DNA of 64,000 bases, from positions 62,001 to 126,000 of the forward strand of contig WYAX01000009.1 in the NCBI GenBank assembly GCA_011525625.1, in the 5' to 3' direction. Below, one piece after another: positions 23,806 to 49,977 of the stretch. The stretch's first letter is position 1; each line of letters opens with the position of its first letter. The translations under genes and the position numbers were made by a program. Origin of the DNA: Nitrospira defluvii. Lineage in GTDB: Bacteria; Nitrospirota; Nitrospiria; Nitrospirales; Nitrospiraceae. The notes beneath the pieces were generated by a model. It had not been told where the DNA came from and did not search any database. It saw only the letters and a program-made list of their open reading frames with translations.

Positions 23806-23817
23806 ATGGAGGCTCAC

Positions 23818-30015: not shown

Positions 30016-30234
30016 ATGGACGAATTGACCCTGAAGATCACCGGGATGAGCTGCGGGCATTGCGTCGGACAGGTCACGAAGGCGCTGACCCGGCTCGACG
30101 GCGTGCAGGTAAACAGCGTAAAGGTCGGCGAAGCGATCGTCGTGTATGATCCGAGGGAAATCGTTCCCACGGAGATTATCCAGGCTGTGACCGAGGCAGG
30201 ATATGAGACCCAATTGGTCAGGAGGGTGGCATGA
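30016..30234 (+). CDS. copZ: Copper chaperone CopZ-like HMA protein
   Basis: 72 aa, a single HMA ferredoxin-fold domain with GMSCGHC (C13, C16) and a conserved C-terminal AVTEAGYE. GAGGAGG precedes the ATG. It overlaps the next gene by an ATGA. In the family it carries Cu(I) in the cytoplasm to the N-terminal HMA domain of CopA, which lies two genes downstream in the same operon. Confidence 0.92.
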   Translation: MDELTLKITGMSCGHCVGQVTKALTRLDGVQVNSVKVGEAIVVYDPREIVPTEIIQAVTEAGYETQLVRRVA

Positions 30235-30611
30235 GCGTGATGGAATGGATCGTCATCATCGGCGGCATCTCCTTAATCGCCTGGATCAATTGGTATTTCT
30301 TTCTGGCCCGACAGCCGGTGTCGAACGCCGGGATTGACGGGGAGGGAGTCCAGGAGGTCGCCATTGTGGTTGAAGGCGGCTATCACCCAGCCGTGGTAAG
30401 CGTGAAGAGGGACAGGCCGGTCCGGCTCGTCTTCGACCGCCGAGAACGGTCAGGTTGTTCGGAAGAGGTTGTCTTTCCGGATTTCGGGGTCCGCAAGTTT
30501 TTGCCCGCCTTCCGAAAGACCTCGATCGAGCTGACGCCGGCACAGACGGGCCATTTCGAATTCACCTGCGGGATGAGCATGTTGCACGGTCGGCTCATCG
30601 TGCAAGACTGA
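30231..30611 (+). CDS. Membrane-anchored cupredoxin-like protein
   Basis: 126 aa. One N-terminal membrane helix ([20 protein letters not shown]) holds a periplasmic cupredoxin-type beta-barrel: [33 protein letters not shown] and [14 protein letters not shown]. The His, Cys and the C-G-M-S-M-L-H-G segment are plausible copper ligands as in EfeO/plastocyanin-like domains. It starts in ATGA overlap with copZ and is followed 13 bp later by copA, suggesting it accepts Cu(I) from the pump on the outer face or reports it. Confidence 0.85.
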
Positions 30612-30624
30612 CGAGGAGAAAACC

Positions 30625-33045
30625 ATGCCAACTACGATTCCCCTGATGGTGATAGAGAAACGGAACCGGACAGAGACGACCGACACCGGAACCACAGCGA
30701 CGACCCGTGAGAAGGTCATGATTCCCGTGAAGGGAATGACCTGCGCCGCCTGTCAGGCGCGAGTGCAACGGGCGTTGCAGGCAACGCCGGGCGTCCTCAA
30801 CGCCTCAGTGAACCTCATGCTGAAGAATGCTGCCGTCACGTACGATCCTATGGTGACCTCCCCCATGGTCCTGGTCGAGGCGATCCGCGAGACCGGCTAT
30901 GGCGCGGAACTAGCCGCGCAGGATCAGAGCGCGTTCGATGAGCAGGAGGCACAGGATCGGGCGCAGGAGGAAGAATATCGGGAACTCAGGCGCAAGGCGT
31001 TGTGGAGTGGAAGCATCGGTCTGCTGGCCATGGCACTGTCCATGCCGCTCATGGGGTCTGCCGAGGCGGATGTTCATGGACCGGTTGCCGATCCGTTCAT
31101 GCGATGGGCGATGGAATCCATGACCCCCGCCATCCACGCCGTCGCTCCCTGGCTCTATGCGTTCACCCCATGGGTGCTCTCGTACGCGCTGCTCGCGCTG
31201 ACCTTGCTCGTCATGGGTTGGGCGGGGCGGCATTTCTACGTGCGCGCCTGGTCCGCCTTCCGACATCACTCGGCGGACATGAACACACTCATCGCAGTCG
31301 GCACAGGGGCAGCCTTCCTCTACTCCGTGCTGGCGACTGTGGCGCCGGAGTTCTTTCTGAATCGGGGCGTGCTGCCGGACCTCTATTATGAGGCGGTGGT
31401 CATGATCATTGCGCTGATCCTGACCGGCAACGCGCTGGAGGCACGGGCCAAGCGCCAGACCTCTGCGGCCTTGAGGCGTCTGGTGGAACTCCAACCGAAC
31501 ACGGCGCGGGTGGTGCGGGCCGGCGCTGAGATAGACATCCCAGTGAACGAAGTGCAGAGCCAGGAGATCGTGATCGTGCGACCGGGAGAACGCATTCCTG
31601 TGGATGGAGCAATCATTTCCGGGACGAGCGCGGTCGATGAATCGATGGTGACGGGCGAATCATTGCCGGTCGAGAAACAGCCGGGGGATCGCCTCATCGG
31701 TGGCACGATCAATAGGACCGGCGCCTTCCGGTATCGCGCGACGACGCTGGGGGCGGACAGCGTCCTGGCCCATATCGTCAAGCTGATGCGTGATGCTCAG
31801 GGCTCACGGGCACCCATCCAGACGCTTGCCGATCAGGTCAGCGGGATCTTCGTGCCGATCGTGCTGTCACTCGCGATCGCGACGTTCGTGATCTGGTTTG
31901 TGACCGTTGACCAGGCGCCGGCCGTGCGTGCGTTTGCCGCGGCGGTGGCGGTCCTGATCATTGCCTGCCCCTGCGCGATGGGACTTGCCGTGCCGACTGC
32001 CGTCATGGTGGCGACCGGCAAGGGAGCCGAAGGGGGTATCCTGATCAAGGGCGGCGAGGCGTTGCAGCGGGCCGGCCAGATCAACGCCGTCGTGTTGGAT
32101 AAGACCGGCACGATCACCGAGGGGCGGCCGACCGTCACGGACGTGGTACCGGTTTTGGGTTCAGAGTGGTCTGAAAACGATCTCGTACGGCTGGTCGCCT
32201 CGATCGAGACCTCCTCTGAACATCCGCTGGCTGAGGCGATCGTGCGCTATGCGAAGGAGCAGGCGCTGTCCCTCGCGACGGTAGACTCGTTCCACTCCGT
32301 CACGGGACGGGGCGCGACCGGCGTGGTAGACGGCGCCGCGCTGGCTGTCGGCAATGAGGCACTCATGGCTGATCATGCGGTGGATCTCACCACAATGAAA
32401 GCGGAAGCGGAACGTCTAGCCGGCGAGGGGAAAACGCCGATGTATATCGCGATCAACGGAACGTTGGCGGGGTTGATCGCCGTAGCCGATCCGATCAAGC
32501 CGACATCCCGTGAGGTCGTTCAACAATTGAACCGACTGGGGCTCACGGTCGTGATGCTGACGGGAGATCATCAACGCACCGCGGAGGCCATCGCACGGCA
32601 GGCCGGGATCGACCGCGTGGTCGCTGGGGTATTGCCGGATGGCAAAGTGGCCGAAGTCCGACGCCGTCAGCAGGCAGGAGAAGTTGTTGCGATGGTGGGC
32701 GATGGTATCAACGATGCTCCAGCCCTGGCGCAGGCCGATGTCGGATTCGCGATCGGCACCGGAACCGATATCGCCCTGGAGGCGAGCGGCGTGACGTTGA
32801 TGCGGAACGATCTCCAGGGCGTCGCGTCGGCGATTCTTCTGGCCCGGCGAACGATGCGGACGATGAAACAGAATTTGTTCTGGGCATTCGTCTACAACGT
32901 CGTCGGCATTCCAGTAGCAGCCGGCATTCTCTACCCGGCCTTCGGTATTCTGCTCAGTCCCATTCTGGCCAGTGCGGCCATGGCGTTCAGTTCAGTCAGC
33001 GTGGTGACGAACAGCCTGCGGCTCCGGCGTGCGCGGGTGGCGTGA
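30625..33045 (+). CDS. copA: Cu(I)-exporting P1B ATPase CopA
   Basis: 806 aa. One HMA domain (GMTCAAC, C40 and C43), eight membrane helices, TGES, CPC motif C448-P-C450 in [20 protein letters not shown], phosphorylation Asp D492 in [25 protein letters not shown] and [14 protein letters not shown]. All marks of a P1B-1 Cu(I)/Ag(I) exporter are intact. GAGGAG precedes the ATG. The operon copZ-cupredoxin-copA is compact and lies after the CorE-like sigma factor. This is the only canonical CPC ATPase in the window. Confidence 0.96.
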
Positions 33046-33697: not shown

Positions 33698-33788
33698 TCC
33701 CACACCGCCAATTCGTTCACGTACCGCTCAATGTCCAACATTGAACGGTACGGATTCCATTACTCAACGTCCTCCTGGAGGTGCTGTC

Positions 33789-35132
33789 GTGAAACGATCA
33801 CTCGTTCATAGCCTGCCGTGGGTCTTTTCTGCCCTCACACTCTCCATCTTAGACCTCACCCCACTGAGTGTCAGTGGCGCACAAGAGACTGGTGGGGTTA
33901 CACGCTCGGATAGCGCGGTCCACACGGCACCCGGTGACGATCGGATTCATCTCCAGAGTCTCATCGAGGAATTCGCCCGGCAGAACCCGGAGATTAAGGC
34001 AGCGCGAGAGCGGTGGGAGGCAGCCAGAGCCGTCGTTCCCCAGGTGCAAACGCTCCCGGATCCCAAGCTTCAGGTCGGCTATCAACGGATGCCAATGGTG
34101 GAGCCGCTTCAAGGGGCCATGTACGGTCTTGCGCAGGAAATTCCATTCCCTGGCAAGCTGCGCCTCCGAGGCGAGGTCGCCACGAGAGAGGCGGAGCGGT
34201 TCGAGCAGGAGTATCTTGCGACGCGGCTCCGGTTGATCGCCCGGCTGAAGCAGGCTTATTTCGATCTGCATTTCATCCACAAAGGGATTGAGATTGTCGA
34301 GCGAAACAAGCAACTGCTGCTGCAGTTCGAGAAGACGGCCAAAGCCCGCTACAGTGTGGGGCAAGCAGCCCAGCAGGACATCTTTCGCGCCCAGGTAGAG
34401 ATTTCCCGTGTCCTCGACCGGCTCGCCGTGCTCGAACAGCAAAAAGAAAGTCTGCACGCGGAGATCAATCGTCTCTTGAATCGTCCTCCTGCTGGGCCCC
34501 TCGGCACTCCCGAGGAGATCCATGTCACACTCCTGACTGTGCCATTGCCGGAGCTGAGTCAACGGGCCGAGGACTTCTCGCCTATCCTGAGAGCCTCCGT
34601 AAAGGGCGTGGAACGGGGCGAGCAAGCAGTCTCGCTCGCGCGGCGACAGTACTTTCCTGATTTTGACATCAATGCATTAGGACTGCGGAACGATCGCATT
34701 AACGACAACGGTTACCAGGTGATGCTCGGAATTAAGATTCCTCTCTGGTACGAAACGAAGCAGCGTCAAGGTGTGAGGGAGGCGGCTGCCGGCTTGAACA
34801 GTGCACGCGAAGAGTTTACGGCCACGCGTCAGGAGGTCCTGTTCCAAGTGAAGGATTCATTCGTCCAGGCTCAGCGGGCGGAGCGGCTCGTGATGATCCT
34901 GCGTGATGCCATCATTCCACAGGCAACGCTAGCGCTCCGAGCCGCGCAATCGAGCTACGCAGTCGGCAAAGTAGATTTCCTCACGCTCTTAAATAGTCTA
35001 TTGACGTTACAGGACAGTGAACTCGAGCTTCATGGCGAGATGGTCTCACATGAGAAAGCGCTCGCGCGGTTGGAAGCCATAACCGGTGGGCCTTTGACTG
35101 GGGTAGTCCAGGAGGGAACTCAGGGCCAATGA
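33789..35132 (+). CDS. cusC: Outer-membrane channel of Cus-type efflux system 2 (TolC family)
   Basis: About 447 aa from GTG 33789, chosen because GGAGGTG lies six bases upstream (a TTG at 33741 is also open). Signal peptide, then two outer-membrane-efflux repeats: LIEEFARQNPEIKAARERWE, MYGLAQEIPFPGKLRLRG, AKARYSVGQAAQQDIFRAQV and YAVGKVDFLTLLNSLLTLQD. The layout and the IPFPGKL motif are as in the channel at 12000, but the sequences are well diverged, so the operons are not a recent duplication. It overlaps the adaptor gene by ATGA. Confidence 0.92.
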   Translation: MKRSLVHSLPWVFSALTLSILDLTPLSVSGAQETGGVTRSDSAVHTAPGDDRIHLQSLIEEFARQNPEIKAARERWEAARAVVPQVQTLPDPKLQVGYQRMPMVEPLQGAMYGLAQEIPFPGKLRLRGEVATREAERFEQEYLATRLRLIARLKQAYFDLHFIHKGIEIVERNKQLLLQFEKTAKARYSVGQAAQQDIFRAQVEISRVLDRLAVLEQQKESLHAEINRLLNRPPAGPLGTPEEIHVTLLTVPLPELSQRAEDFSPILRASVKGVERGEQAVSLARRQYFPDFDINALGLRNDRINDNGYQVMLGIKIPLWYETKQRQGVREAAAGLNSAREEFTATRQEVLFQVKDSFVQAQRAERLVMILRDAIIPQATLALRAAQSSYAVGKVDFLTLLNSLLTLQDSELELHGEMVSHEKALARLEAITGGPLTGVVQEGTQGQ

Positions 35133-36385
35133 CTCGTCGGCCTCTGTATATCGGCCTTACACTTCTGCTGACTGTGGGGCTCGCCATTACGTGGTGGTGG
35201 GCAACTCGGGATTCCATGCCGGCACCTCCCGAGACGCAACCTGACGCGATGCCGACCCATGAGGCCATGCCCGGTATGGAACATCCAGGGGACAAGCCGG
35301 CATCGAAAGCACAGGCGGGAGGCGACCTGCCCTCGCCGCCACCGGATCTGACGTCGCGCACCGTGACGATCTCGCCCGAGCGGTTACAGACGATCGGCGT
35401 GAAATTTGAGGAGGTCGCACGGCGCCCGCTCGAAAAAGTCATTCGCACCGTCGGCCGGGTAGCGATCGATGAGCGCCGCTTCGCACGTGTCAACCTCAAA
35501 TTCGCCGGCTGGATCGACGAACTCTTCGTGAGCGCCATCGGGGATCACGTGAAGAAGGGGCAGAGCCTCTTTACCATCTACAGCCCGGATATCGTCGCGA
35601 CCCAAGAGGAATATCTGTTGGCCCTGCAGAGTATCAGGGAGCTTGGTCAAAGCGAGTTCCCTGAAGTGTCCCGTGGGGCGAAAGATCTGCTCGAAGCCAC
35701 CCGGCGACGGTTCCAATTGTGGGATATCACGCCGGATCATATTCGGGACCTCGAGCAAACGGGAAAAGTTCTCCGAACCCTGCCAATGCATTCTCCGATT
35801 ACGGGAACGGTCATTCGCATGGAAGCCCGAAGAGGCACCTACGTGAGTCCCGGGACAGAGCTGTATATGATTGCCGATCTCGCGCACATCTGGATCTTAG
35901 GCGACATCTATGAGTACGAGCTGCCCTTCATCACCATCGGTCAAGGGGCCACGGTCACGCTCTCCTACGATCCCAGTACGAAGCTCCACGGCCATGTCGG
36001 ATTCATCTATCCGACGCTTGATCCCAAGACGCGGACGGCCAAGGTTCGATTCGAGCTGGAGAATCCCGGTGAAAAGCTCAAGCCGGAGATGTATGCGAAT
36101 GTGGCGTTGAAGATCCCGTTTGGGACACGCCTGGCGGTCCCGCGCGACGCGGTCATTGAATCGGGGGAGCGCCAGTTGATTTTCATCCACCATGGAGGGG
36201 GCAAACTGGAATGGCGGTCCGTCAAGCTGGGCGTGAGTGCCGAGGACTGGGTGGAGGTGGTGGAGGGACTCAAGGAAGGTGATCACATCATCACGTCGGC
36301 GAACTTTTTGATCGACTCAGAGAGCCAATTGAAGGCAGCCGTGAGCGGTATGGCGGGGATGCCGGGCATGAAGATGAAGGATTGA
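35129..36385 (+). CDS. cusB: Periplasmic adaptor of Cus-type efflux system 2 (CusB-like)
   Basis: 418 aa, normal CusB length, without the extra YtkA-like domain seen in the first system. N-terminal anchor, a short Met/His linker (MPTHEAMPGMEHPGDKP), then LKFAGWIDELFVSAIGDHVK, YSPDIVATQEEYLLALQS, the hairpin, MHSPITGTVIRMEARRGTYV, LAHIWILGDIYEYELPF, and a C-terminal SANFLIDSESQL ending in MAGMPGMKMKD. It bridges the RND pump and the outer-membrane channel. It begins inside the channel's stop codon and ends six bases before cusA, so the three genes are co-translated. Confidence 0.92.
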   Translation: MTRRPLYIGLTLLLTVGLAITWWWATRDSMPAPPETQPDAMPTHEAMPGMEHPGDKPASKAQAGGDLPSPPPDLTSRTVTISPERLQTIGVKFEEVARRPLEKVIRTVGRVAIDERRFARVNLKFAGWIDELFVSAIGDHVKKGQSLFTIYSPDIVATQEEYLLALQSIRELGQSEFPEVSRGAKDLLEATRRRFQLWDITPDHIRDLEQTGKVLRTLPMHSPITGTVIRMEARRGTYVSPGTELYMIADLAHIWILGDIYEYELPFITIGQGATVTLSYDPSTKLHGHVGFIYPTLDPKTRTAKVRFELENPGEKLKPEMYANVALKIPFGTRLAVPRDAVIESGERQLIFIHHGGGKLEWRSVKLGVSAEDWVEVVEGLKEGDHIITSANFLIDSESQLKAAVSGMAGMPGMKMKD

Positions 36386-36391
36386 ACGCCC

Positions 36392-39300
36392 ATGGTTGCA
36401 CAGATCATCGAGTTCAGCGCGAGAAACCGCTTCATTGTCTTTCTGCTGGTCTCTGCATTCTCAGTGGTCGGACTCTGGGCGATGTGGCAAACACCAATCG
36501 ATGCGTTGCCGGATATTTCCGACACGCAAGTCATCGTCTATACCACCTGGCCGGGGCGCTCGCCCGATCTCGTGGAAGATCAAATCACCTATCCGATCGT
36601 CACTGCCTTGCTCTCCGCGCCGAAGGTCACCGTCGTCCGTGGTTTCTCGGACTTCGGCTATTCCTACGTCTACATTCTCTTCAAAGACGGGACGAATATT
36701 TATTGGGCCAGGTCGCGCATCCTCGAACGGTTGAGCCAACTCTCTGGCCGCATGCCGGAGGGGGTCACGCCGCAACTCGGCCCAGACGCGACGGGCGTGG
36801 GATGGGTCTTTCAGTACGCCCTGGTCGATGAGACCGGCCAGCATGATCTCGCCGCCCTGCGCAGTTTCCAGGATTGGTATTTGCGGTACTGGATACGCGC
36901 CGTGGAAGGCGTGGCCGAGGTGGCCAGTATCGGCGGGTTTGTCCGGCAGTACCAAGTGAACCTTGATCCGACCAAAGTATTGGCCTATCGCCTCTCTCTC
37001 CCTTCTATTGTCGAAACGATTCGCCAGAGCAACAACGACGTAGGGGGCCGCGTCGTGGAGTTCTCCGGAATTGAATACTTGGTCCGTGGGAGAGGTTATA
37101 TCAAGAAAGTTGGGGACATTGAGAAGATCGCTGTGGGGGTCAACGAAAACGGCACACCAATTCTGTTGCGCGACGTCGCGACGGTGCGACTGGGCCCCGA
37201 CATGCGACGAGGACTGGCGGAGCTCAACGGCCAAGGCGAGGTCGCGGGCGGCATCGTCGTCATGCGCTTCGGCGAGAATGCGTTGACCGTAATTGAACGG
37301 GTCAAAGCCAAGCTCAAAGAACTAGAACCCTCCATGCCAAAAGGCATGAAGGTCGTCACGGTCTATGACCGGAGCGACTTGATCCATGAATCGATCGCCA
37401 CGGCCAACGAAAGCCTGCTGGAAGAACTGATTGTGACCGGCTTGTTCATTATCGCCTTCTTGCTGCATGTCCGCTCCGCGATCGTGCCCATTCTCACCCT
37501 GCCGCTTGCGGTGCTGATCGCGTTCATTCCCATGTATCTGCTGGAGATCGGCATCAACATCATGTCACTGGGTGGCATCATCGTCGCGATCGGGGACATG
37601 GTGGATGCCGCGATTGTGATGGTGGATAACGCACACAAGCGTTTAGAGGACTGGGAGCGAGACGGACGCAAGGGTGAGCGGCTCCAGGTCCTGATTGATT
37701 CGGCCAAGGAAGTGGGCCCGCCGATTTTTGCCTCAGTCCTCGTCATTGCCATTTCGTTCATCCCGATCTTTGCCCTCGAATCCCAGGAAGGGCGCATGTT
37801 CAAGCCCCTGGCCTGGACGAATAATCTCGCGATCGCCATGTGCGCGGTGCTGGCCATTACCCTGGTGCCCGCCTGCCTGCCGACCTTCATTCGCGGAAAG
37901 ATCTTTCCGGAACAGAAGCACCCGGTGAGCAGGAGCCTCCAGCGCCTCTATGCGCCGCTGTTGCGATGGACACTGGTGCATCGCGGAACCGTGGTGGCCC
38001 TCGCCATCGGACTCCTGCTGAGCATCGTCCCGGTCTATCAGCGTATGGGCTCCGAGTTCATGCCGCCTCTGTACGAAGGTACGATCCTCTATATGCCCAC
38101 GACGCTCCCCGGGCTCTCGGTCACGGAGGCCAGTCGACTGCTCCAGATGATGGACCAGAAGCTTCGTACGTTCCCCGAGGTCGAGCATGTCTTCGGCAAA
38201 GCGGGACGGGCGGAGACCTCCACCGACCCGGCGCCCTTCAGCATGATGGAAGTGGTCGTCGAGCTGAAATCGAAGGACCAGTGGCGGCCAGGCCTCAGCT
38301 ATGAAGGACTGGTCGATGAGATGGATCGCGCGCTCAACATTCCTGGCGTGACCAACGCTTGGACGATGCCGATTAAGGCGCGGATCGACATGTTGACCAC
38401 CGGCGTCCGCACGCCGGTGGGGATCAAGATCTTCGGTCCCGATCTGAAGCAGATTGGACAGATCGGCGAGCATCTCGAGATGGTACTCAAAGAGGTCCCC
38501 GGCACGCGGAGCGTCTATGCAGAGCGGGTGTCCGGCGGATACTTTCTCGACTTCGATATCAACCGTGACGAGATCGCGCGTTACGGGCTCAAGCTGATGG
38601 ATGTCGGCAAGATCATCGAAACGGCCATCGGGGGTGAAAGTATTGCGACCACGATCGAGGGCCGTGAGCGCTATCCCATCAACGTCCGTTATCTCCGTGA
38701 GTTGCGGGATGATCCTGAAAAACTGAAGCGCGTGCTCGTGGATACGCCGACCGGTGCGCAAGTGCCGCTCGCGCAACTCGCGACGCTCCGATTCGTCAAA
38801 GGCCCACCCATGGTCCGGGATGAAAACGGCATGTTGGCCGGCTACGTCTTTCTCGACATGACGGGGCGTGATGTCGGCGGATATGTGGAGGATCTCAAAC
38901 GGGTTGTGGCGGCAAAAGTCGAACTGCCGCCGGGCTATACGATTGCCTGGTCCGGCCAATATGAGTTCATGGAGCGGGCGAAAGCTCGGTTGAAGTTCGT
39001 CGTGCCGTTGACGCTCATCATCATCTTCGTCATCTTCTATTTCACGTTCCAATCGGTGGCAGAAACCTGCATGGTGATGGTGGGGGTGCCGCTCTCGCTG
39101 GTGGGGGCCATCTGGTACCTGTCGATCCTTGGCTACAACATGAGCATTGCCGTGTGGGTAGGATTCATCACGGTCGTGGGCACGGCCGCGGAGACCAGTG
39201 CCGTCATGTTGGCCTACTTGGATGAGGCCTGTGCCCGGCGTAAAGCGGCTGGAGGTCTCACGACGCTTCAGGATGTAATCGAGACCGTCCATAGTGGGGC

Positions 39301-39970
39301 GGTGGAACGTATCCGACCGATGGCCATGATCGGCATCGTCGACGTGATAGGGCTCTTCCCAGTGATGTGGGCCACCGGCACTGGCGCCGATGTGATGAAA
39401 CGAATTGCGGCTCCACAAGTCGGCGGGGTGTTCTCCGCCATGATCCTCACGCTGTTTGTCATTCCGCCCGTCTATGTCATGTGGCGGTGGTGGAAGGAAC
39501 GGACAGCGACTCAGATGAGTGATGCGGCATTACCAAGAACGGAGGAGAAGGAAATGACAGGAAGAGGAGTGCTCACGCTCATGGTGCTGGTAGGTGCGAT
39601 GGCAAGTCTTGGGTGCCAATCGACACCTAAGCCGACGGTTTTGTCTACACCGACCGGGACCAATGCCGCAGCGTCACAGCACAATGACGAAGGGATCCAG
39701 GCCTATCAGCAGCAACAGTGGGAGAGTGCGAAACAACATTTCGACGCGGCGATCGCCGCGTCTCTGGAGTTCGCCGAAGCCCATTACAACTTAGGCATGA
39801 CCTTATATCGACTGAAGGCGATGCAAGAGGGTGACGCGCATTTCATCAAGGCAGCGAATCTAGCGCCGGGGAACAAGGTCATTTGGGATGCGCCGCCTCT
39901 GAGGGGTGTGACGGTTCCGGACAAGGAAGTTCCTGGAATGTCGTCGGATGGACATATGCACAGCCACTAG
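36392..39970 (+). CDS. cusA: CusA-like RND pump 2 continuing in frame into a TPR lipoprotein
   Basis: Residues 1-1054 are a complete Cu(I)/Ag(I)-type RND pump: GDMVDAAIVMVDNAHKRLED in helix 4 and three Met at 568, 618 and 667 in MPTTLPGLS, FSMMEVVV and IDMLTTG, the same numbers as in pump 1. Where the family stops (after YVMWRWWKER) no stop codon occurs. The frame runs on into a segment that looks like a separate lipoprotein (see 39554). The pump C terminus is cytoplasmic, so a fused signal sequence would have to act as an extra membrane helix. Either a true fusion or lost stop codon with internal re-initiation is possible. Confidence 0.93.
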   Translation: MVAQIIEFSARNRFIVFLLVSAFSVVGLWAMWQTPIDALPDISDTQVIVYTTWPGRSPDLVEDQITYPIVTALLSAPKVTVVRGFSDFGYSYVYILFKDGTNIYWARSRILERLSQLSGRMPEGVTPQLGPDATGVGWVFQYALVDETGQHDLAALRSFQDWYLRYWIRAVEGVAEVASIGGFVRQYQVNLDPTKVLAYRLSLPSIVETIRQSNNDVGGRVVEFSGIEYLVRGRGYIKKVGDIEKIAVGVNENGTPILLRDVATVRLGPDMRRGLAELNGQGEVAGGIVVMRFGENALTVIERVKAKLKELEPSMPKGMKVVTVYDRSDLIHESIATANESLLEELIVTGLFIIAFLLHVRSAIVPILTLPLAVLIAFIPMYLLEIGINIMSLGGIIVAIGDMVDAAIVMVDNAHKRLEDWERDGRKGERLQVLIDSAKEVGPPIFASVLVIAISFIPIFALESQEGRMFKPLAWTNNLAIAMCAVLAITLVPACLPTFIRGKIFPEQKHPVSRSLQRLYAPLLRWTLVHRGTVVALAIGLLLSIVPVYQRMGSEFMPPLYEGTILYMPTTLPGLSVTEASRLLQMMDQKLRTFPEVEHVFGKAGRAETSTDPAPFSMMEVVVELKSKDQWRPGLSYEGLVDEMDRALNIPGVTNAWTMPIKARIDMLTTGVRTPVGIKIFGPDLKQIGQIGEHLEMVLKEVPGTRSVYAERVSGGYFLDFDINRDEIARYGLKLMDVGKIIETAIGGESIATTIEGRERYPINVRYLRELRDDPEKLKRVLVDTPTGAQVPLAQLATLRFVKGPPMVRDENGMLAGYVFLDMTGRDVGGYVEDLKRVVAAKVELPPGYTIAWSGQYEFMERAKARLKFVVPLTLIIIFVIFYFTFQSVAETCMVMVGVPLSLVGAIWYLSILGYNMSIAVWVGFITVVGTAAETSAVMLAYLDEACARRKAAGGLTTLQDVIETVHSGAVERIRPMAMIGIVDVIGLFPVMWATGTGADVMKRIAAPQVGGVFSAMILTLFVIPPVYVMWRWWKERTATQMSDAALPRTEEKEMTGRGVLTLMVLVGAMASLGCQSTPKPTVLSTPTGTNAAASQHNDEGIQAYQQQQWESAKQHFDAAIAASLEFAEAHYNLGMTLYRLKAMQEGDAHFIKAANLAPGNKVIWDAPPLRGVTVPDKEVPGMSSDGHMHSH
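39554..39970 (+). CDS. TPR lipoprotein, in frame with cusA
   Basis: 138 aa starting at ATG 39554, preceded by GGAGGAGAAGGAA, which is a good ribosome site within the cusA frame. The product starts with a lipoprotein signal (VLTLMVLVGAMASLGC) and then two TPR-like helices pairs: NDEGIQAYQQQQWESAKQHF and FAEAHYNLGMTLYRLKAMQE. The end is His/Met-containing (SSDGHMHSH). The presence of a private start, a signal peptide and a lipobox argues that it was, and may still be, translated by itself. In the sequence as given it has no stop codon separating it from the pump. Confidence 0.7.
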   Translation: MTGRGVLTLMVLVGAMASLGCQSTPKPTVLSTPTGTNAAASQHNDEGIQAYQQQQWESAKQHFDAAIAASLEFAEAHYNLGMTLYRLKAMQEGDAHFIKAANLAPGNKVIWDAPPLRGVTVPDKEVPGMSSDGHMHSH

Positions 39971-41322: not shown

Positions 41323-41549
41323 GCACAGAGTGTCATGAAGGCCAATATCGCGAAGAGATTCAGCTTGGTGACCGTTTCGATCCTGGTCGTTCTGTGAAAG
41401 GCGGTGAGGCACGAGTTCAAATGGGACAATACGATCATTGACGCCAACGGTTGAGAGTCGGTGGCGAAGAGTGAACGATGATGGCAGGCCCATGCGCGGT
41501 GGAAAGAGGAAGTACTATTCGATTGGATACCAGTAGAAGGGGGGGCGAA

Positions 41550-41762
41550 ATGAAACAGCAATTTGTGAAGGGGAAGCGCGATGAAAAGGCCGTCAGCGCA
41601 AGAAAGGATAACCCCCAAGAGGGCGCCTTATCCGATGAGCGACAGGAGCGCATTGCGAAGCGGGCCTATGAGCTCTATCTCGAGCGAGGTTGCCGGGAGG
41701 GGTGCGACGTGGAGGATTGGGTCGACGCGGAGCGAGACATTCTTGCGTTACCCCGAGGATAG
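41550..41762 (+). CDS. DUF2934 protein, copy 1
   Basis: 70 aa from ATG 41550 (purine-rich AAGGGGGGGC upstream). The motif RIAKRAYELYLERG, then CDVEDWVDAERDILALP is the DUF2934 helix pair, found as short proteins or tails in many proteobacteria and Nitrospirota. Biochemical role unknown. A second member lies at 58763-59041 on the other strand. Confidence 0.85.
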   Translation: MKQQFVKGKRDEKAVSARKDNPQEGALSDERQERIAKRAYELYLERGCREGCDVEDWVDAERDILALPRG

Positions 41763-41837: not shown

Positions 41838-43691
41838 ATGAACACCGTGAAAGATCCGGTTTGTGGAATGATGATTTCGGTTGGTGAAGGACTCTCTGTC
41901 GTCTATCTGGGACAAGAGTTCCGGTTCTGTTCTGATCTCTGCAAACGAACCTTCCTGGCTACACCGGAACGCTACGCGGCTGGACCGACAGGAACGGCAC
42001 CGAGCGTCGCGGACGTGACCAGGCGCATTGCGTATTTTTCGATGGAAGTCGCAGTGGATTCGGGCATGCCGACCTACAGCGGAGGCTTAGGTGTCCTGGC
42101 CGGTGACACGTTGCGGTCCTGCGCCGATCTCAAAATTCCTCTCGTCGCCGTCACTCTTCTCTATGGACGCGGCTATTTCGAGCAACACCTGGATGAATGG
42201 GGCAATCAGCGTGAACAGCCTGCGCGTTGGGATCCCTCGAAGTTTGCCCGGTTGCTCCCTCCGACGGTCCACGTGTCCATTGAAGGCCGCCCCGTCGTGG
42301 TCCGGGCGTGGCAGTACGACATCACCGGCCTCTCGGGCTATGTGGTTCCCTTGCTGCTCTTAGATGCCAATGTCGAGGAGAACATAGCCGGCGATCGGGA
42401 ACTGACCGGTGATCTTTATGGTGGCGATGAGCGGTACCGTCTGGCTCAGGAAATTCTGCTGGGTATCGGCGGCGTCCGGATGCTCCGTGCGTTGGGCTAC
42501 ATCCACATTGAACGGTTCCACATGAATGAAGGCCATGCGGCCTTGCTCACTCCTGAGCTGCTGCGTGAGCGCCAACAGAGAGAGCCGGCGGCGTGGGATT
42601 TCGACGGCGTGAGACGGGACTGCATCTTCACCACCCATACCCCTGTGCCGGCCGGCCATGATCAGTTCTCTTATGGACTGGTGAAGCAGCTGCTCGGTGA
42701 GACAGCGCCGCTGGAAGTCCTGCAGATGCTGGGCGGCAGGGACCGGCTGAACATGACGCTCCTGGCTTTGAATCTGAGCACCTACGTGAACGGGGTCGCC
42801 AAGCGTCACGGGCAGGTCTCTCAAGAAATGTTCCCGGGATATGCCATCGACTCCATTACGAACGGCGTGCATTCGGCCACCTGGACCTCGCCCAGCTTTC
42901 AGCAACTGTACGACCGGCATATTCCTGGCTGGCGGACTGATTCCTTCGCCCTCCGCTATGCCATCAGCATCCCTACTCAGGACATCTGGGCGGCGCATAT
43001 TCAAGCGAAGGCACGACTGCTTGAAGAAATCCGGAGGCGGACCTCGTTACCGTTCCGCGATGAGGTGCTGACGATCGGATTTGCCCGGCGGGCCACCCAA
43101 TACAAGCGGGGTGATCTGGTGTTCTCGGCCCCCGATGAGCTCGTCGACATTGCAAAGAAGGTTGGCCCGATTCAGCTGATTTTTGCGGGCAAGGCGCATC
43201 CCAAGGATGCGCCGGGAAAGGAGATCATTCGCCGTGTGGTTCGCGTCGCTGGTCAGGTCAAGCCGGAGGTCCAGATCGCGTATCTGGAGAATTATGATCT
43301 GGCCTTGGCACAGCTTCTGACTGCAGGGGTCGATCTCTGGCTGAACACGCCGCTTCCCCCCTTGGAGGCATCCGGCACGTCCGGGATGAAGGCCGCGCAC
43401 AACGGGGTCCCCAGCTTGAGCGTGCTCGACGGCTGGTGGGTGGAAGGTCATATCGAAGGCATCACGGGGTGGTCCATCGGCCGTGGCCCTTCTGATGCCG
43501 CTTCCCAGGAAGGGCGCGATGCCCAGGATGCCCGCGAGCTGTACGACAAACTGCGAGGGGTCATCACGCCTTTATTCTATCAGAGCCACGAACGATGGAG
43601 CGAGCTCATGCGATCGACTATTACCTTCAACGCTTCCTTCTTCAACACGCACCGCATGGTCCAACAGTATGCGGCCAATGCCTATGTGTAA
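41838..43691 (+). CDS. YHS metal-binding domain fused to alpha-glucan phosphorylase
   Basis: 617 aa. Residues 1-50 are a YHS domain (DPVCGMMISVGEGLSVVYLG, FRFCSDLCKRTFLATPERY), a small fold found on Cu, Ag and Hg ATPases. The rest is an alpha-glucan/glycogen phosphorylase of the short bacterial-archaeal type: IAYFSMEVAVDSGMPTYSGG, LGVLAGDTLRSCADL, HMNEGHAALLTPE, TTHTPVPAGHDQF, ITNGVHSATW, FARRATQYKRGDL and the PLP lysine region ASGTSGMKAAHNGVPSLSVL. The enzyme releases glucose-1-phosphate from glucans. No gap or frameshift separates the parts. YHS on a glucan phosphorylase is unexpected and suggests metal control of glycogen use. Confidence 0.93.
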   Translation: MNTVKDPVCGMMISVGEGLSVVYLGQEFRFCSDLCKRTFLATPERYAAGPTGTAPSVADVTRRIAYFSMEVAVDSGMPTYSGGLGVLAGDTLRSCADLKIPLVAVTLLYGRGYFEQHLDEWGNQREQPARWDPSKFARLLPPTVHVSIEGRPVVVRAWQYDITGLSGYVVPLLLLDANVEENIAGDRELTGDLYGGDERYRLAQEILLGIGGVRMLRALGYIHIERFHMNEGHAALLTPELLRERQQREPAAWDFDGVRRDCIFTTHTPVPAGHDQFSYGLVKQLLGETAPLEVLQMLGGRDRLNMTLLALNLSTYVNGVAKRHGQVSQEMFPGYAIDSITNGVHSATWTSPSFQQLYDRHIPGWRTDSFALRYAISIPTQDIWAAHIQAKARLLEEIRRRTSLPFRDEVLTIGFARRATQYKRGDLVFSAPDELVDIAKKVGPIQLIFAGKAHPKDAPGKEIIRRVVRVAGQVKPEVQIAYLENYDLALAQLLTAGVDLWLNTPLPPLEASGTSGMKAAHNGVPSLSVLDGWWVEGHIEGITGWSIGRGPSDAASQEGRDAQDARELYDKLRGVITPLFYQSHERWSELMRSTITFNASFFNTHRMVQQYAANAYV

Positions 43692-43765: not shown

Positions 43766-44395
43766 ATGAATTTCACACGAGTGATTACCATAGGAGTTCT
43801 GTTTTTCTTGGCGGGGGCGAGTCCCGGTGTTGTCGGGGCGGATGACAAGTCTGGACACTCGAAGATGGATGGTGGTCACGAGGCGGCGACTTGTCGGCCA
43901 TCCACCGGGCATTACCTCCATCATCTGCTGAAACATTCGAAGGAGATCGGCCTGACTGCCGACCAAGTGTCCAAACTGAAGGCGATCCAGCTCGACCTCA
44001 ACCGAACGCGGATCAAAACCGAGGCTGATATGCAGGTGTCGGAGCTGGAGCTAGCGGTACTCACTGAGGACGAGAAAGCCGATCTGTCTGCGATCGAGAC
44101 GAAAGCGAAAGAACGCGCAATGCTGGAGGTTGGCTTGCAGATGGCCGCTATCAAGGCCAAGCGGGATGCGGTGTCTCTGCTCACGCCGGAGCAACGCGAA
44201 AAAGTAACGGCCGAGCGCGAAAAAATGATGAAGGAGATGGGCGGGATGATGGGGAAAGGCGAGAAAGAAAAGAGCGAGGGTGAAAAGAAGAAACATATGG
44301 GCGGGATGATGAAGAAAGGCATGATGGGTGGGAAAAGCGGTGATGGAGACCCATCGCCGGCTCAGCCCAAAGAGGAAGAGTCTCATCAACACTAG
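43766..44395 (+). CDS. Spy/CpxP-like periplasmic protein with Met/His-rich tail
   Basis: 209 aa, AAAGGAGGAG before the ATG. A signal peptide (ending near GVVGA) is followed by HSKMDGGHEAATC, then two long helices typical of the Spy/CpxP/LTxxQ group: EIGLTADQVSKLKAIQLDL and AVSLLTPEQREKVTAEREK, each with the L-T-x-x-Q type mark. The tail is rich in Met, Lys and Gly (MGGMMGKGEKEK, MGGMMKKGMMGG) and ends ESHQH. The family includes envelope-stress chaperones and metal-sensing CnrX-like proteins; copper binding by the tail is likely but inferred. Confidence 0.88.
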   Translation: MNFTRVITIGVLFFLAGASPGVVGADDKSGHSKMDGGHEAATCRPSTGHYLHHLLKHSKEIGLTADQVSKLKAIQLDLNRTRIKTEADMQVSELELAVLTEDEKADLSAIETKAKERAMLEVGLQMAAIKAKRDAVSLLTPEQREKVTAEREKMMKEMGGMMGKGEKEKSEGEKKKHMGGMMKKGMMGGKSGDGDPSPAQPKEEESHQH

Positions 44396-45294: not shown

Positions 45295-46761
45295 ATGGCA
45301 ATGTCCAGGCGAGAGTTTCTACAGCGTTCGCTTACCTTCGGCACTATTGGCGCGACATCAGGATTGACCGGTCTTTCGGCGTTTGCCGCGCGTCACAATC
45401 CTATCGGAGAAGGGACGGCGGAGTTGTTCGAAAAATTCGACGGTAATGTCGTCCTCTTGGCAGGCAAATATAGCGGGCTGGTGCATGTCATGGATTTAGC
45501 GGTCCCAGAGACACTGGCGTGGTTTCCTTATGGCCTCACCGGCATGGATATGCCGATCGCCCATCATATTGCAGCGATGCCATCGGCCGACCCCTACAGT
45601 GGGTTTGACTTTTATCAGACCTTTCAGCCACCGATGGCACCGTACGTCGATGAGAACTCGCCGGAATGGAGAAATCGGGGCGACTTCAGAATGTACAAGA
45701 TGCGTTTCGACGGCTCGGGAAAGCAGAACCGCATTTCGCTGGTCAGCGACATCTCGGCCGCGACCGGCATGGCCTTGGGTGTCCACGTTGCGATCGGCGT
45801 TGGAGAGAACGCCAACAAATATGTCGCGTTTGCGGATGGTCAGAAAGACATGGTGCTGATCACCACGGTTGACGACAACCCGAAGACCGTGAGGGCATTC
45901 CGACTCGATTACGACATACTGGCGCGTCAACTGAGCGTGTCACATGTGTTTCCGGATCCCGCGACAGGCAAGTTTGATTACCAGGGTCGGAAGGGCGTGA
46001 AAACGACGCATGAAGCGATGCTCGGTGAAGAACTGATCCCTGCGGATACGACGGCGGTGTTCGTGGATGCCTTTACGTGGCATCCCACCTTGCCGCTGGG
46101 CGCCATCCTGATACGTCGACTCGGCTGTTGCTGCATTGTCGATACGCGAACGTGGGAACCATTAGCGTTACTCTCGACCGGCAAGGGATCGCCCGACAAT
46201 TTTCAGTTGGTGAAACAGCAAGGTGACACCTGGACTTTCTCGGTGCCGGCGGTAGTGACTCCAATGCACGAATCTGGTTTTCTTACGAATGGTGAATACT
46301 TTCTTGCCTGTAACAATGTGCTGCAGAACCTCGTTACGGTCTATCAGTCTACCGATCCCAATCCGAATAAGTGGAAGAAGACACATTTCGTCGAGGGGTT
46401 CGGCAATATGTATATGCCGATGCACACGGGCAACGTTCCCGATTCTCGCTGGGCATGCTTGACGCTGTGGGCACGCAAACCGAACAACGGCTTCGTCTGC
46501 AAGATCGACACGAAGACATGGAAGGTGGTCGCAAAGTGGGACATCGGCCCTGATCCCCATACAGTCGACTGTACGGTGGATGGAAAGTACATGACGGCGG
46601 TCTATAGCGGGCATCAGGCAGGGCAATCCGGACTGGTGGTGATTAATTGCCATACAGACAAGATCGAAGCACGAATCCCGAGTCCTAGCGGACATCACGA
46701 CCACGTGGTGGTCCCGCGCGATTGGGAAGGCATGAAGACATCACGCAGCACGTCGGTCTAA
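45295..46761 (+). CDS. Tat-exported NosZ-like beta-propeller protein
   Basis: 488 aa, GAGGAGG before the ATG. Twin-arginine signal MSRREFLQRSLTFG. The remaining chain resembles the beta-propeller (CuZ) domain of nitrous-oxide reductase, without the C-terminal CuA cupredoxin domain. His residues that could form a copper site are H90-H91 (PIAHHIAAMPSADPYSGFDF), H263, H325 (MHESG), H377 (PMHTGN), H422 (DPHTVD) and H467/468/470. Three consecutive Cys at 278-280 (GCCCIV) are unusual. Lacking CuA it should not reduce N2O by the known route. Between a redoxin and the PcoA/PcoB pair, a periplasmic copper role is likely. Confidence 0.8.
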   Translation: MAMSRREFLQRSLTFGTIGATSGLTGLSAFAARHNPIGEGTAELFEKFDGNVVLLAGKYSGLVHVMDLAVPETLAWFPYGLTGMDMPIAHHIAAMPSADPYSGFDFYQTFQPPMAPYVDENSPEWRNRGDFRMYKMRFDGSGKQNRISLVSDISAATGMALGVHVAIGVGENANKYVAFADGQKDMVLITTVDDNPKTVRAFRLDYDILARQLSVSHVFPDPATGKFDYQGRKGVKTTHEAMLGEELIPADTTAVFVDAFTWHPTLPLGAILIRRLGCCCIVDTRTWEPLALLSTGKGSPDNFQLVKQQGDTWTFSVPAVVTPMHESGFLTNGEYFLACNNVLQNLVTVYQSTDPNPNKWKKTHFVEGFGNMYMPMHTGNVPDSRWACLTLWARKPNNGFVCKIDTKTWKVVAKWDIGPDPHTVDCTVDGKYMTAVYSGHQAGQSGLVVINCHTDKIEARIPSPSGHHDHVVVPRDWEGMKTSRSTSV

Positions 46762-46913: not shown

Positions 46914-47141
46914 ATGAGCGAGCGCATACGCCTTGCCACACTGAGTGCACGAGATGGACTCGATGTCGCCAAACAATGGGCACAACGGGCGGCAAGCCTC
47001 TATCGCCTGTCCGTCGGCGAGCCGACTCATTATGCGTCACAGCCGGACTGGAAACCGCTCTTTGAGCAGAGTATTCGTGAGTTGGTGGCTTTTGCAGAAA
47101 CAGGAGTGATCTCATTACCTCCGACGCCGAATCGCAATTGA
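46914..47141 (+). CDS. Small hypothetical protein upstream of pcoA
   Basis: 75 aa, helical, with no export signal, and Trp residues in VAKQWAQRAASLYRL and QPDWKPLFEQSIRELVAF. A GAGGA lies immediately before the ATG, rather too close to be convincing. It reaches into the start region of the multicopper oxidase gene (the TTG at 47138 overlaps its stop). I do not recognise the family; translational coupling to pcoA is possible. Confidence 0.5.
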   Translation: MSERIRLATLSARDGLDVAKQWAQRAASLYRLSVGEPTHYASQPDWKPLFEQSIRELVAFAETGVISLPPTPNRN

Positions 47142-47158
47142 TTGCTGATACGTCAATC

Positions 47159-49093
47159 ATGAAACCCGCAAGGCAACAAAATAGTACAAATCACCTTCCC
47201 AGTATTTCTAGGCGTCTGCTGCTCAAGCGCGTAGGCGTGTTGGGGCTGATGGCCGGGGTTGCTTCACTGATTCCCGCCTGCGGCTGGACGAACGCCGCCA
47301 CCAGGACCCGGACCGGCGTCGGTTCACAGACGCCCCTGCGTGGAGAGGTCATCGATCTAGCCATCAGCGAAACCCGCTTTATCCTTGACGGGCGAACTGC
47401 GATGGCGATGACCATCAACGGGACGATCCCGGGACCAGTGATTCGGCTGAAAGAAGGGCAGGACGTGACGCTGCGCGTGACAAACCAATTGACGGAAACG
47501 ACCTCGATTCACTGGCACGGTTTGCTGCTGCCGCCCGAGATGGACGGCGTGCCCGGGGTGAGCTTCGGTGGTATCGAGCCGGGGACAACCTTTACTTACC
47601 ATTTTCCAGTCAGGCAGAGCGGCACCTACTGGTTTCATAGCCATTCAGGCGGACAAGAGTTCTTGGGCATGTACGCTCCGATGATCATTGATCCACAAGA
47701 GCCGGAACCGTTTCAGTATGACCGGGACTATGTCGTGATGCTCTCGGATTGGACCTTCGAGCCACCCGAATCCGCACTCGCCAATCTAAAAAAACTCAAC
47801 GGCTACTACAACTTCCAGAAACGCACCGCGCGCGAGTTTTTTGCCGACATCGCCAGATCCGGGCTGTTGCCGACACTGGCCAACTACTTGAGTTGGGACC
47901 GCATGCGCATGGACCCGACCGACTTCGCGGACGTCACCGGCTACACCTTCACGTATCTCATGAACGGCTTATCGCCCAACGGCAATTGGACCGGGGTCTT
48001 TCAGCCGGGCGAGAGAGTACGTCTGCGCTTCATCGACGCGGCGAGCATGACATTCTATGACGTGCGTATCCCGGGACTTAAGATGACAATCGTGCAGGCG
48101 GATGGCCAGAACGTCCAGCCCGTCGTGGTAGACGAGTTTCGCATTGGACCGGCCGAAACCTACGATGTCATCGTCGAACCGGTCGGGGAGCGCGTGTATA
48201 CCATCTTTGCCGAAACTATGGATCGCAGCGGCTTCGCGCGGGGCACCTTGGCGACGAGTCAGGGCATGAGTGGGGAGGTCCCAGAACGGAGGCCCCGGCC
48301 GCTCCGTACGATGGAAGACATGGGCATGAGCATGGAAGGCATGGACATGCCGGGCATGAAGCACCATTCGAGCGGCAACGGGATGCAGATGCCCGACGTC
48401 GTTGCACAGGGCGAGATGCCGAGGGTGAAGGCAGCGGACGACAAGTCGAACATGGACCATGTGCAACACGGTGAAGGCATGCAGGAAATGCAAAGTATGG
48501 ACACAGGGACGGACGGCCACGACCACTCGACGATTCCCGGTGCCGAGCCCGTCAAGCATGGGCCCGATGATCATGGGACCGGCAATCAAACGGTGGCCGA
48601 GTATTCGCAGAACCGCTTTGGAGAACCCGGGAGGGGGCTGGAACACAGTGACCGGAGGGTGCTGCTCTATACTGACTTGAAAAGTCTGGCGCCCTATCCT
48701 GATCAACGTGAGCCTGAGCGAGAAATAGAACTCCACCTGACGGGCCACATGAACCGGTACATGTGGTCGTTTGACGGCAAGAAGTATTCCGAGGCGAAAG
48801 AGCCGATTCGCTTCCGCTATGGCGAGCGCCTGCGCTTCACGTTCGTGAACGATACGATGATGGAACACCCCCTGCATCTGCACGGTATGTGGATGCATCT
48901 GGAAAACGGCGCGGGCGCATACTTGCCGCGCAAGCACACCGTCGTCGTCAAACCCGCCGAGCGAGTATCGGTCGCGATCACTGCGGATGCCCAGGGACGC
49001 TGGGCTTTTCACTGCCATCTATTGCTTCACATGGAAGCGGGTATGTTCCGGGTCGTTGAGGTCGCGGGTGAGGAGGGTGCGAGACCGTCATGA
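47159..49093 (+). CDS. pcoA: Copper-resistance multicopper oxidase (PcoA/CopA)
   Basis: About 644 aa from ATG 47159 (a TTG at 47138 is also in frame). Twin-arginine signal SRRLLLKRVGVLG. The four copper-binding segments are intact: HWHGLLLPPEMDGVP, GTYWFHSHSGGQE, EHPLHLHGMWMHLE and FHCHLLLHMEAGM. Between domains 2 and 3 is a long Met/His-rich stretch (MEDMGMSMEGMDMPGMKHH, MDHVQHGEGMQEMQSMD). The family oxidises periplasmic Cu(I) to less toxic Cu(II) and binds extra copper on the Met tract. It overlaps pcoB by ATGA. Confidence 0.95.
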   Translation: MKPARQQNSTNHLPSISRRLLLKRVGVLGLMAGVASLIPACGWTNAATRTRTGVGSQTPLRGEVIDLAISETRFILDGRTAMAMTINGTIPGPVIRLKEGQDVTLRVTNQLTETTSIHWHGLLLPPEMDGVPGVSFGGIEPGTTFTYHFPVRQSGTYWFHSHSGGQEFLGMYAPMIIDPQEPEPFQYDRDYVVMLSDWTFEPPESALANLKKLNGYYNFQKRTAREFFADIARSGLLPTLANYLSWDRMRMDPTDFADVTGYTFTYLMNGLSPNGNWTGVFQPGERVRLRFIDAASMTFYDVRIPGLKMTIVQADGQNVQPVVVDEFRIGPAETYDVIVEPVGERVYTIFAETMDRSGFARGTLATSQGMSGEVPERRPRPLRTMEDMGMSMEGMDMPGMKHHSSGNGMQMPDVVAQGEMPRVKAADDKSNMDHVQHGEGMQEMQSMDTGTDGHDHSTIPGAEPVKHGPDDHGTGNQTVAEYSQNRFGEPGRGLEHSDRRVLLYTDLKSLAPYPDQREPEREIELHLTGHMNRYMWSFDGKKYSEAKEPIRFRYGERLRFTFVNDTMMEHPLHLHGMWMHLENGAGAYLPRKHTVVVKPAERVSVAITADAQGRWAFHCHLLLHMEAGMFRVVEVAGEEGARPS

Positions 49094-49977
49094 CCATTTC
49101 TTGGCGAGCTCTGTTTGCCGCCCTTGCGGCATGCCTGTGCGGGGCTGCCCCGCATACAACAGCCGTCGCGGAAGTCGCATCCACGGTCTCAAACCCAAAG
49201 GGTTCAGCCAATTCAACTGCTTCTCAGGCGTCTGCGCCCATCGGTCCTTCACCCCAGGAGGAACGCATGCTCCAGAACGTGTCCCAGCCAAGCGGCTGGC
49301 TTTCTCCCGTCAATGATCAAGAGCACCGTCTCTTCACGCTCGTCGACGTCCTCGAATACCGTCCAAGTACAGGGGGAGGTGAGAGCCAGAGCGACTACCG
49401 ATGGGATGTCGAGGGCTGGTACGGTGGGGACTACAACCGAGTCTGGTTCAAAAGCGAAGGGCAGCGGGACACGGCCTTCAAATCGGACTACGACGTGGAC
49501 TTTCAGCTGCTCTACGGCCGGTTTATTCAGAAGTACTACGATTTTCAGATCGGCCCTCGTGTAGAAACGCAATCATTCCGCGGGCGCAATGTGACTCGTG
49601 GGCTCGCGTCAATCGGGATCGAGGGACTGGTTCCCTACAGCTATGATCTGGAAGCCAACCTGTTCATCGATCAGAACGGCGCGGTTTCTGCGCGCCTCTC
49701 GTTCACCAAAGATTTGCTCCTGACGCAAAGGCTGATCCTTCAAAGCCGATTTGAAACCAACGCAGCCATACAGCGAGTCGAGAGATTCACGACCGGCTCC
49801 GGCCTTAACAACCTCGAATTGGGGTTTCGGCTGCGCTATGAAATTCGACGACAGTTTGCGCCTTACGTGGGCGTCTCCCTGGACAGAAGTTTCGGCGAGA
49901 CCGCCACACTCGTGCGCCAAGAGGGAGGAACCCCCAGCCAGGTGCGATTCGTGGCCGGAGTACGGATGTGGTTCTGA
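49090..49977 (+). CDS. pcoB: Outer-membrane copper-resistance protein PcoB/CopB
   Basis: 295 aa with a signal peptide. The CopB domain is clear: LVDVLEYRPSTGGGESQSDY, RWDVEGWYGGDYNRVWFKSE, GRFIQKYYDFQIGPRVETQ, ASIGIEGLVPYSYDLEANLF, and a final beta-strand ending in Phe (VRMWF) as in outer-membrane barrels. The N-terminal region lacks the long Met/His repeat of Pseudomonas CopB. ATGA overlap with pcoA means the two are made together; the pair is the standard Pco/Cop periplasmic detoxification unit. Confidence 0.94.
   Translation: MTISWRALFAALAACLCGAAPHTTAVAEVASTVSNPKGSANSTASQASAPIGPSPQEERMLQNVSQPSGWLSPVNDQEHRLFTLVDVLEYRPSTGGGESQSDYRWDVEGWYGGDYNRVWFKSEGQRDTAFKSDYDVDFQLLYGRFIQKYYDFQIGPRVETQSFRGRNVTRGLASIGIEGLVPYSYDLEANLFIDQNGAVSARLSFTKDLLLTQRLILQSRFETNAAIQRVERFTTGSGLNNLELGFRLRYEIRRQFAPYVGVSLDRSFGETATLVRQEGGTPSQVRFVAGVRMWF

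Follow-up and report, generated by a model that had tools for sequence, protein, structure and literature searches.

The adenylyl cyclase of Mycobacterium phlei carries a C-terminal YHS domain and is switched on by 1-10 µM Cu2+; other metals are inactive and the copper effect is reversed by EDTA, according to the part of the source that is accessible (PMC4626032). The same part of that source describes a toluene-4-hydroxylase crystal in which the YHS domain is without metal, and the ribosomal L24e-like protein as a single TRASH domain with Cd2+ bound in the crystal (PMC4626032). YHS domains are also found at the N-terminus of P1B ATPases (L051:4316-7042) and as free-standing proteins in the metal islands of cyanobacterial plasmids. 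Among the alpha-glucan phosphorylases of family TIGR02094, of which the closest solved structures are those from Segatella copri (PDB 9l6i/20yr), most are without YHS, and longer forms have other N-terminal sequence there.

Here we describe a protein in which an N-terminal YHS domain precedes a phosphorylase that shares the complete core and the active-site positions of the TIGR02094 enzymes. Like the M. phlei cyclase, which is proposed to be a copper sensor, it combines a YHS domain of the Asp plus three Cys type with a short linker and an intracellular enzyme, but the two differ in that the YHS domain is C-terminal in the cyclase and N-terminal in the fusion, that the cyclase makes a second messenger whereas the phosphorylase fusion would break a storage polymer, and that the copper effect has been measured for the cyclase whereas the YHS-phosphorylase is known here from sequence alone (PMC4626032, accessible part). 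The P1B ATPases with N-terminal YHS have the same domain and gene neighborhoods as the fusion but, unlike it, are membrane pumps without phosphorylase, and the free-standing YHS proteins match it in domain and context but have no enzyme attached. In the open-licence PMC literature, no paper was found on YHS joined to a glycogen or glucan phosphorylase, none on an alpha-glucan phosphorylase in copper-resistance genomic islands, and nothing useful on the Segatella copri phosphorylase or DUF3417; YHS is not mentioned in the accessible part of PMC2621215, which belongs to the literature on glucan phosphorylase and copper or heavy metal resistance. Control of an enzyme by YHS is known, while YHS on a phosphorylase did not turn up in the open-licence PMC papers searched. 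We propose tentatively, giving it somewhat less than an even chance, that the fusion is a metal-responsive glycogen (alpha-1,4-glucan) phosphorylase that is activated by metal and serves metal resistance.

The YHS-phosphorylase and its copper island

In the window, i.e., the whole 64,000-nucleotide stretch of Nitrospira defluvii DNA analyzed, one open frame with an ATG start at 41838..43691 (+) encodes the YHS-alpha-glucan phosphorylase fusion of 617 aa. Its YHS domain (residues 4-47; 41847..41978, +) matches Pfam PF04945 with an E-value of 1.6e-10 and 41.3 bits against a curated cut-off of 30.3. The short-form alpha-glucan phosphorylase catalytic core (residues 64-617; 42027..43688, +) matches the Pfam phosphorylase family PF00343 (E 9.4e-31) and NCBIfam TIGR02094 with 542.3 bits against a cut-off of 191.7, residues 64-616 corresponding to profile positions 1-598 of 600. 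YHS and phosphorylase are the only domains that Pfam and NCBIfam find in the fusion; E1-E2 ATPase and hydrolase domains were not found by either. The preliminary description had reported a YHS domain at the start of an otherwise complete phosphorylase within a copper island: the fusion is confirmed by two profiles above their cut-offs (PF04945 and TIGR02094) in a single frame, the completeness holds for the short form of the enzyme, and the island is borne out by the CusC/B/A-like proteins, P1B pumps, cupredoxin, CopA multicopper oxidase and CopB encoded around the fusion.

The closest solved relative is the glycogen phosphorylase of Segatella copri (PDB 9l6i; E 5.8e-91 over residues 63-611), in which the catalytic match starts at residue 109, vs residue 63 in the window's fusion; the YHS domain occupies the place where longer phosphorylase relatives have other N-terminal sequence. 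Within the core, K518 (43389-43391, +) lies in the conserved motif EASGTSGMK and is taken by us to be the PLP lysine, and R418, K423, H267 and H345 presumably have phosphate-site roles, by analogy to glycogen phosphorylase. A variable linker with low conservation and low pLDDT (residues 48-61; 41979..42020, +) joins the core to the YHS domain, in which the predicted ligands are D6 (41853-41855), C9 (41862-41864), C31 (41928-41930) and C35 (41940-41942), all on the + strand. These four residues correspond to the one Asp and three Cys proposed as YHS metal ligands in the accessible part of PMC4626032. An assembly chimera is ruled out by the occurrence of the same fusion in complete plasmids and single-contig genomes. 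A YHS domain created by a mis-called start is likewise ruled out, as it is in the same open frame and is kept by relatives down to 27% identity over the YHS stretch.

Upstream of the fusion are the genes for a heavy-metal P1B ATPase with two HMA stretches (23806..26223, +; TIGR01525, 532.7 bits; PF00403), a cupredoxin-like protein (30231..30611, +; PF13473), a copper-type P1B ATPase with HMA (30625..33045, +; TIGR01511, 626 bits), a CusC-like outer-membrane efflux protein (33741..35132, +; PF02321), a CusB-like adaptor (35129..36385, +; PF16576), a CusA/CzcA-type RND pump with a C-terminal extension (36392..39970, +; TIGR00914, 1161.7 bits over residues 1-1039) and, directly upstream, a DUF2934 protein (41478..41762, +; PF11154, E 1.6e-13), in addition to a MerR regulator and mercury genes. 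Downstream are a putative Spy/CpxP-like metal-resistance protein with a weak match (43766..44395, +; PF13801, 23.6 bits, under the cut-off of 29.2), a CopA-type multicopper oxidase (47138..49093, +; TIGR01480, 804.5 bits) and CopB (49090..49977, +; PF05275). This side of the island also encodes a P2-type cation ATPase and a copper-type P1B ATPase that a transposase frame interrupts.

Other features of the island include an apparent MerB-MerT fusion (27132-28319, +) with alkylmercury lyase (PF03243, residues 126-253) and MerT (PF02411, residues 286-393) matches, both above cut-off. The extension of the CusA-type pump (36392-39970) after residue 1039 resembles TPR repeats, although with scores under the cut-off, and includes a lipoprotein-like stretch; a frame of the same length as this extended pump is found in a relative (L161:2998-6573). 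The copper-type P1B ATPase at 50210-53496 (+) looks split by the transposase, with an N-part at 50210-51016 (positions 2-83 of the TIGR01511 profile), an rve transposase at 51065-51895 and a C-part at 51991-53496. A 488-aa protein with a Tat-like twin-arginine start is encoded inside the island at 45295-46761 (+); it has no Pfam match and a negligible NosZ-like match only.

Elsewhere in the same genome are two more phosphorylases, a 599-aa frame without YHS that is 57% identical to the fusion and a 742-aa frame, together with a strong starch-synthase catalytic domain match (a glycogen-synthase-type gene), a GH57 gene and other YHS genes. A 962-aa frame of this genome has three successive YHS stretches (G000:C32:274834-275433).

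Occurrence, conservation and probable repeated origin of the fusion

Full-length matches from residues 1-4 on are found in 8 of 100 related genomes and in 16 of 395 Nitrospirota genomes, the source genome included in each; one further Nitrospirota fusion copy (G043) ends at a contig edge and stands outside both counts. The whole fusion is present in 5 of 557 plasmid records with any match, all cyanobacterial and with 61-63% identity; Leptolyngbya boryana and Stanieria are among the hosts of these plasmid copies. Three of the four plasmid copies examined are annotated as 'alpha-glucan family phosphorylase' and the fourth as 'putative alpha-glucan phosphorylase'. A scan of named genomes found 13 fused proteins among the best 80 of 590 candidate loci, i.e., those most like the window's protein, which is no census. 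Within these best 80, the fused proteins come from Nitrospirota, Gemmata, two anammox planctomycetes, Blastocatellia, Ignavibacteriales, a Bacteroidetes bacterium, Omnitrophica, Nostoc, two records titled Deltaproteobacteria and a Bathyarchaeon; most of the carriers are MAGs, of which single taxon labels may be wrong, and the two Deltaproteobacteria-titled records fall in Myxococcota by the tree tool. All these counts cover N-terminal YHS only, so that a C-terminal fusion would be missed. The viral contigs searched held no relative of the fusion protein. A purely Nitrospira oddity is ruled out by the fusions in other phyla.

After L041 was dropped as a duplicate of L155, 33 distinct fusions from nine phylum-level groups were compared. 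Absence of the YHS part in all relatives would have contradicted the preliminary description, and it is not observed: D6, C9, C31 and C35 are conserved in 33 of 33 fusions, as does M11, and the core residues K518, R417, R418, K423, H267 and H345 are kept equally (33/33). Mean column conservation among the fusions is 0.61 for YHS, 0.28 for the linker and 0.75 for the core.

An AlphaFold2 model of the fusion, built with 28 relatives, has a mean pLDDT of 79.9, with linker residues 49-60 below 50, and the YHS domain modeled alone reaches pLDDT block means of 89-95 up to residue 40. In structural comparison, the YHS model superposes on the YHS part of toluene/o-xylene monooxygenase hydroxylase (Z 6.4 over 48 residues, with an rmsd of 2.1), a modest similarity as Z is below 8, and also on ribosomal L24e-like chains; such a common fold gives no proof of function. 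A PDB sequence search with the YHS part alone returned no match at E-values up to 1. The predicted likeness to L24e-like chains makes a structural metal possible, given the Cd2+-bound TRASH domain described in the accessible part of PMC4626032, and the YHS cysteines might form a structural zinc site or a thiol redox/disulfide switch rather than a copper sensor. We consider this very unlikely, as the neighborhood specifically holds copper/silver-type efflux genes, and the reversal of the copper effect by EDTA in the M. phlei cyclase argues against oxidation (PMC4626032, same part).

YHS is missing in 90 of the 124 classified rows of a 125-row phosphorylase tree. This tree, which was built from the catalytic core alone, requires 4 changes of the fused state. 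A 55-row tree requires 5, and well-supported branches force at least 3 of these, although change counts by themselves do not separate gain from loss. With the Myxococcota pair constrained to the main fused clade, the log-likelihood drops by 192 (AU p 2e-7); with the Bathyarchaeal fusion constrained to it, the drop is 163 (AU p 3e-104, a value that should not be read literally). A topology in which all fusions except the Bathyarchaeal one are held together, without the nested unfused Omnitrophota, is rejected too. Based on the trees and the AU tests, YHS was most likely added to the phosphorylase on at least three separate occasions, and a single ancestral fusion is disfavored because it needs many losses.

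These results bear on whether the fusion is neutral and simply carried along with the metal islands. The islands are mobile, with conjugative-type cyanobacterial plasmids among the carriers and transposase frames in the window. However, the same enzyme has most likely gained YHS independently at least three times, and all four ligand positions are retained in the 33 proteins from nine phylum-level groups although the linker has diverged, which makes neutrality the slimmest of the possibilities considered here.

Metal and glucan genes near fused and unfused copies

P1B ATPase, CusA, multicopper oxidase, CopB, four-helix copper protein and cupredoxin genes at most 10 kb from a locus were used as metal markers, and L043, which is cut at a contig start and lacks its N-terminus, was left out of the fused and unfused counts. 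Metal genes in the neighborhood, which the preliminary description had suggested checking, go with the fused form: a marker is present at 14 of 16 fused vs 0 of 24 unfused paralogue loci of Nitrospirota (Fisher p 5e-9; among the 24 are the source-genome paralogue and those of eight genomes in which the fusion occurs as well), at 9 of 13 fused vs 7 of 66 unfused named-genome loci among the best 80 of 590 (p 2.7e-5; the 7 are probably too many, as L086 and L119 count by frames best labeled P2-type ATPase), and at 6 of 7 vs 4 of 30 of those named-genome loci that have at least 5 kb on both sides (p 6e-4), all three p values overstating independence because the loci share ancestry. A pairs test of fusion vs metal marker over well-supported branches yielded n=3 pairs, and with only three independent pairs the link is unable to reach significance once ancestry is counted. 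By the thresholds used, the marker is missing at 4 of 13 named-genome fusions (best 80 of 590) and 2 of 16 Nitrospirota fusions, several of them on short contigs. In the cyanobacterial plasmids, a metal marker lies beside 4 of 4 fused loci, and metal-pump genes adjoin the fusion in all four records examined.

Some of these arrangements are very tight. In the Myxococcota pair (L059 and L077) the order is P1B pump, cupredoxin and YHS-phosphorylase, with frames that overlap or almost touch, and in Omnitrophota L064 a P1B pump begins 8 bases past the open frame of the fusion. Operon-like packing of this kind, with P1B pumps and cupredoxins as partners at L059, L077 and L064, would also fit a YHS domain that leaves catalysis unchanged. 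Such a domain would instead anchor the enzyme to a chaperone or a metal pump, or act as a metal buffer, and the island would carry the phosphorylase simply as a local source of energy. One neighboring pump (L051) bears its own YHS, and the flexible linker with its low model confidence may indicate a loosely tethered module. We nevertheless regard docking or buffering as unlikely: the Asp and the three Cys would be dispensable for docking alone but are present in all 33 fusions, no pump was found in the examined flanks of the Bathyarchaeal fusion, and YHS-dependent copper switching is documented in another enzyme (PMC4626032, accessible part).

The Bathyarchaeal fusion (L089:1517-3283, +) has as neighbors a glycogen debranching enzyme, two glycosyltransferases and a KaiC-like ATPase, and no metal marker was found within 10 kb downstream and 1.5 kb upstream; its linker is almost missing. 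At another locus, an N-terminal YHS is found on a histidine-kinase-like protein (L065:6040-6909, +) that adjoins an unfused glucan phosphorylase and a P1B ATPase, where the sensor may be supplied separately from the phosphorylase.

Glucan genes accompany the fusion as well. A GH57 glucan hydrolase (PF03065, E 3.9e-56) lies beside 13 of 33 fused vs 0 of 91 unfused loci, where the 33 exclude the window's own locus and treat L041 and L155 as separate entries, the 91 take in L043, and one GH57 query was used, which other kinds of GH57 would escape. Phosphofructokinase, phosphoketolase or GH65 proteins are encoded near single fused loci; phosphoketolase is not fusion-specific (2 of 33 fused vs 14 of 91 unfused). 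The recurring Nitrospirota order is CusCBA, (methyltransferase, DUF2934), fusion, DUF2933, ICMT-like and GH57, with a DUF2934 gene adjoining several Nitrospirota fusions, and the cyanobacterial plasmids carry the DUF2933, ICMT-like and, in three of four, methyltransferase genes of this order. An ICMT/PEMT-like membrane methyltransferase and a GH57, exemplified by L161:10933-11745 and L161:11778-14609, follow the fusion in many Nitrospirota islands. The same one-sequence search did not find a GH57 of the island type in the window's own island; the nearest relative (G021, 91% identical) has a GH57 2.5 kb from its fusion (L167).

Possible control of glycogen breakdown by metal

The domains, the conserved ligand and catalytic positions, the repeated fusion and the linkage to copper/efflux and GH57 genes support a metal-responsive phosphorylase, as do the glycogen-synthase-type gene and the two other phosphorylases of the same genome; that metal binds, which metal it is, that the effect is activation and not inhibition, and what purpose it serves in the cell are what we infer. 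As cytosolic metal rises, a soft metal ion would be bound by D6, C9, C31 and C35 of the N-terminal YHS module on its short flexible linker, with Cu(I)/Ag(I) or Cu(II) as the likeliest candidates. Metal on YHS would then raise phosphorylase activity, the glycogen store would yield glucose-1-phosphate at no ATP cost, and glucose-1-phosphate would supply ATP and reducing power for efflux pumps and thiol defences. Autotrophy and glycogen storage are known traits of the groups from which many fusion carriers come. Reserve energy may be needed when copper poisons primary metabolism, and autotrophic or glycogen-storing carriers would fit such a need.

Metal-gated glycogen breakdown is made plausible by the kept ligands, the metal-gene neighborhood and the precedent of the M. 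phlei cyclase, by analogy with which metal on YHS should alter phosphorylase activity (PMC4626032, accessible part). In Synechocystis at high copper, mRNA of the ordinary glgP and glgX is down to 0.35 and 0.33, respectively (PMC4182526, accessible part), and copper inhibits GAPDH of S. aureus (PMC6350627, accessible part); a special enzyme may be needed because of these two effects. Two points favor activation and not inhibition: the islands bring a further glucan-breaking gene, and the drop of the ordinary glgP and glgX under copper would leave room for a dedicated enzyme (PMC4182526).

The same drop also fits the opposite logic, in which glycogen is saved under copper (PMC4182526). Metal on YHS would then turn glycogen breakdown off, so that glycogen is saved or a build-up of sugar phosphates is averted while glycolysis is blocked by copper, and both the lowered glgP and glgX transcripts and the inhibited GAPDH are consistent with such gating (PMC4182526; PMC6350627). 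It appears improbable to us, since the extra glucan-degrading GH57 at 13 of 33 fused loci argues for a wanted flux under metal stress, and the one tested YHS enzyme is copper-activated, as far as the accessible part of PMC4626032 goes.

Further observations speak against a metal-responsive phosphorylase, in addition to the fused loci without a marker, the fusion-metal link that falls short of significance in the pairs test and the alternative reading of the Synechocystis data: the Bathyarchaeal fusion is in a glycogen locus without a metal marker in the flanks examined, YHS without metal exists in the toluene-4-hydroxylase crystal (PMC4626032, accessible part), and the window's island is without a GH57 of the island type.

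In its broadest form, the proposal would be that glycogen phosphorylase of many bacteria and some archaea is under allosteric control by copper or silver as a direct ligand, that this switch was built at least three times through the addition of YHS to one and the same enzyme, and that mobile resistance islands carry a glycogen-mobilizing YHS-phosphorylase and GH57 that pay for metal export when primary energy metabolism is poisoned; this is possible, but we hold it to be doubtful. Glycogen phosphorylase is a textbook case of a regulated enzyme, responding to phosphorylation, AMP and HPr. A transition metal, if it does control the enzyme, would be a new kind of input that ties energy storage directly to metal resistance, and it would explain why glucan-breaking genes travel in copper islands. 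The repeated fusion in distant lineages is a good natural experiment on the addition of sensor domains to metabolic enzymes.
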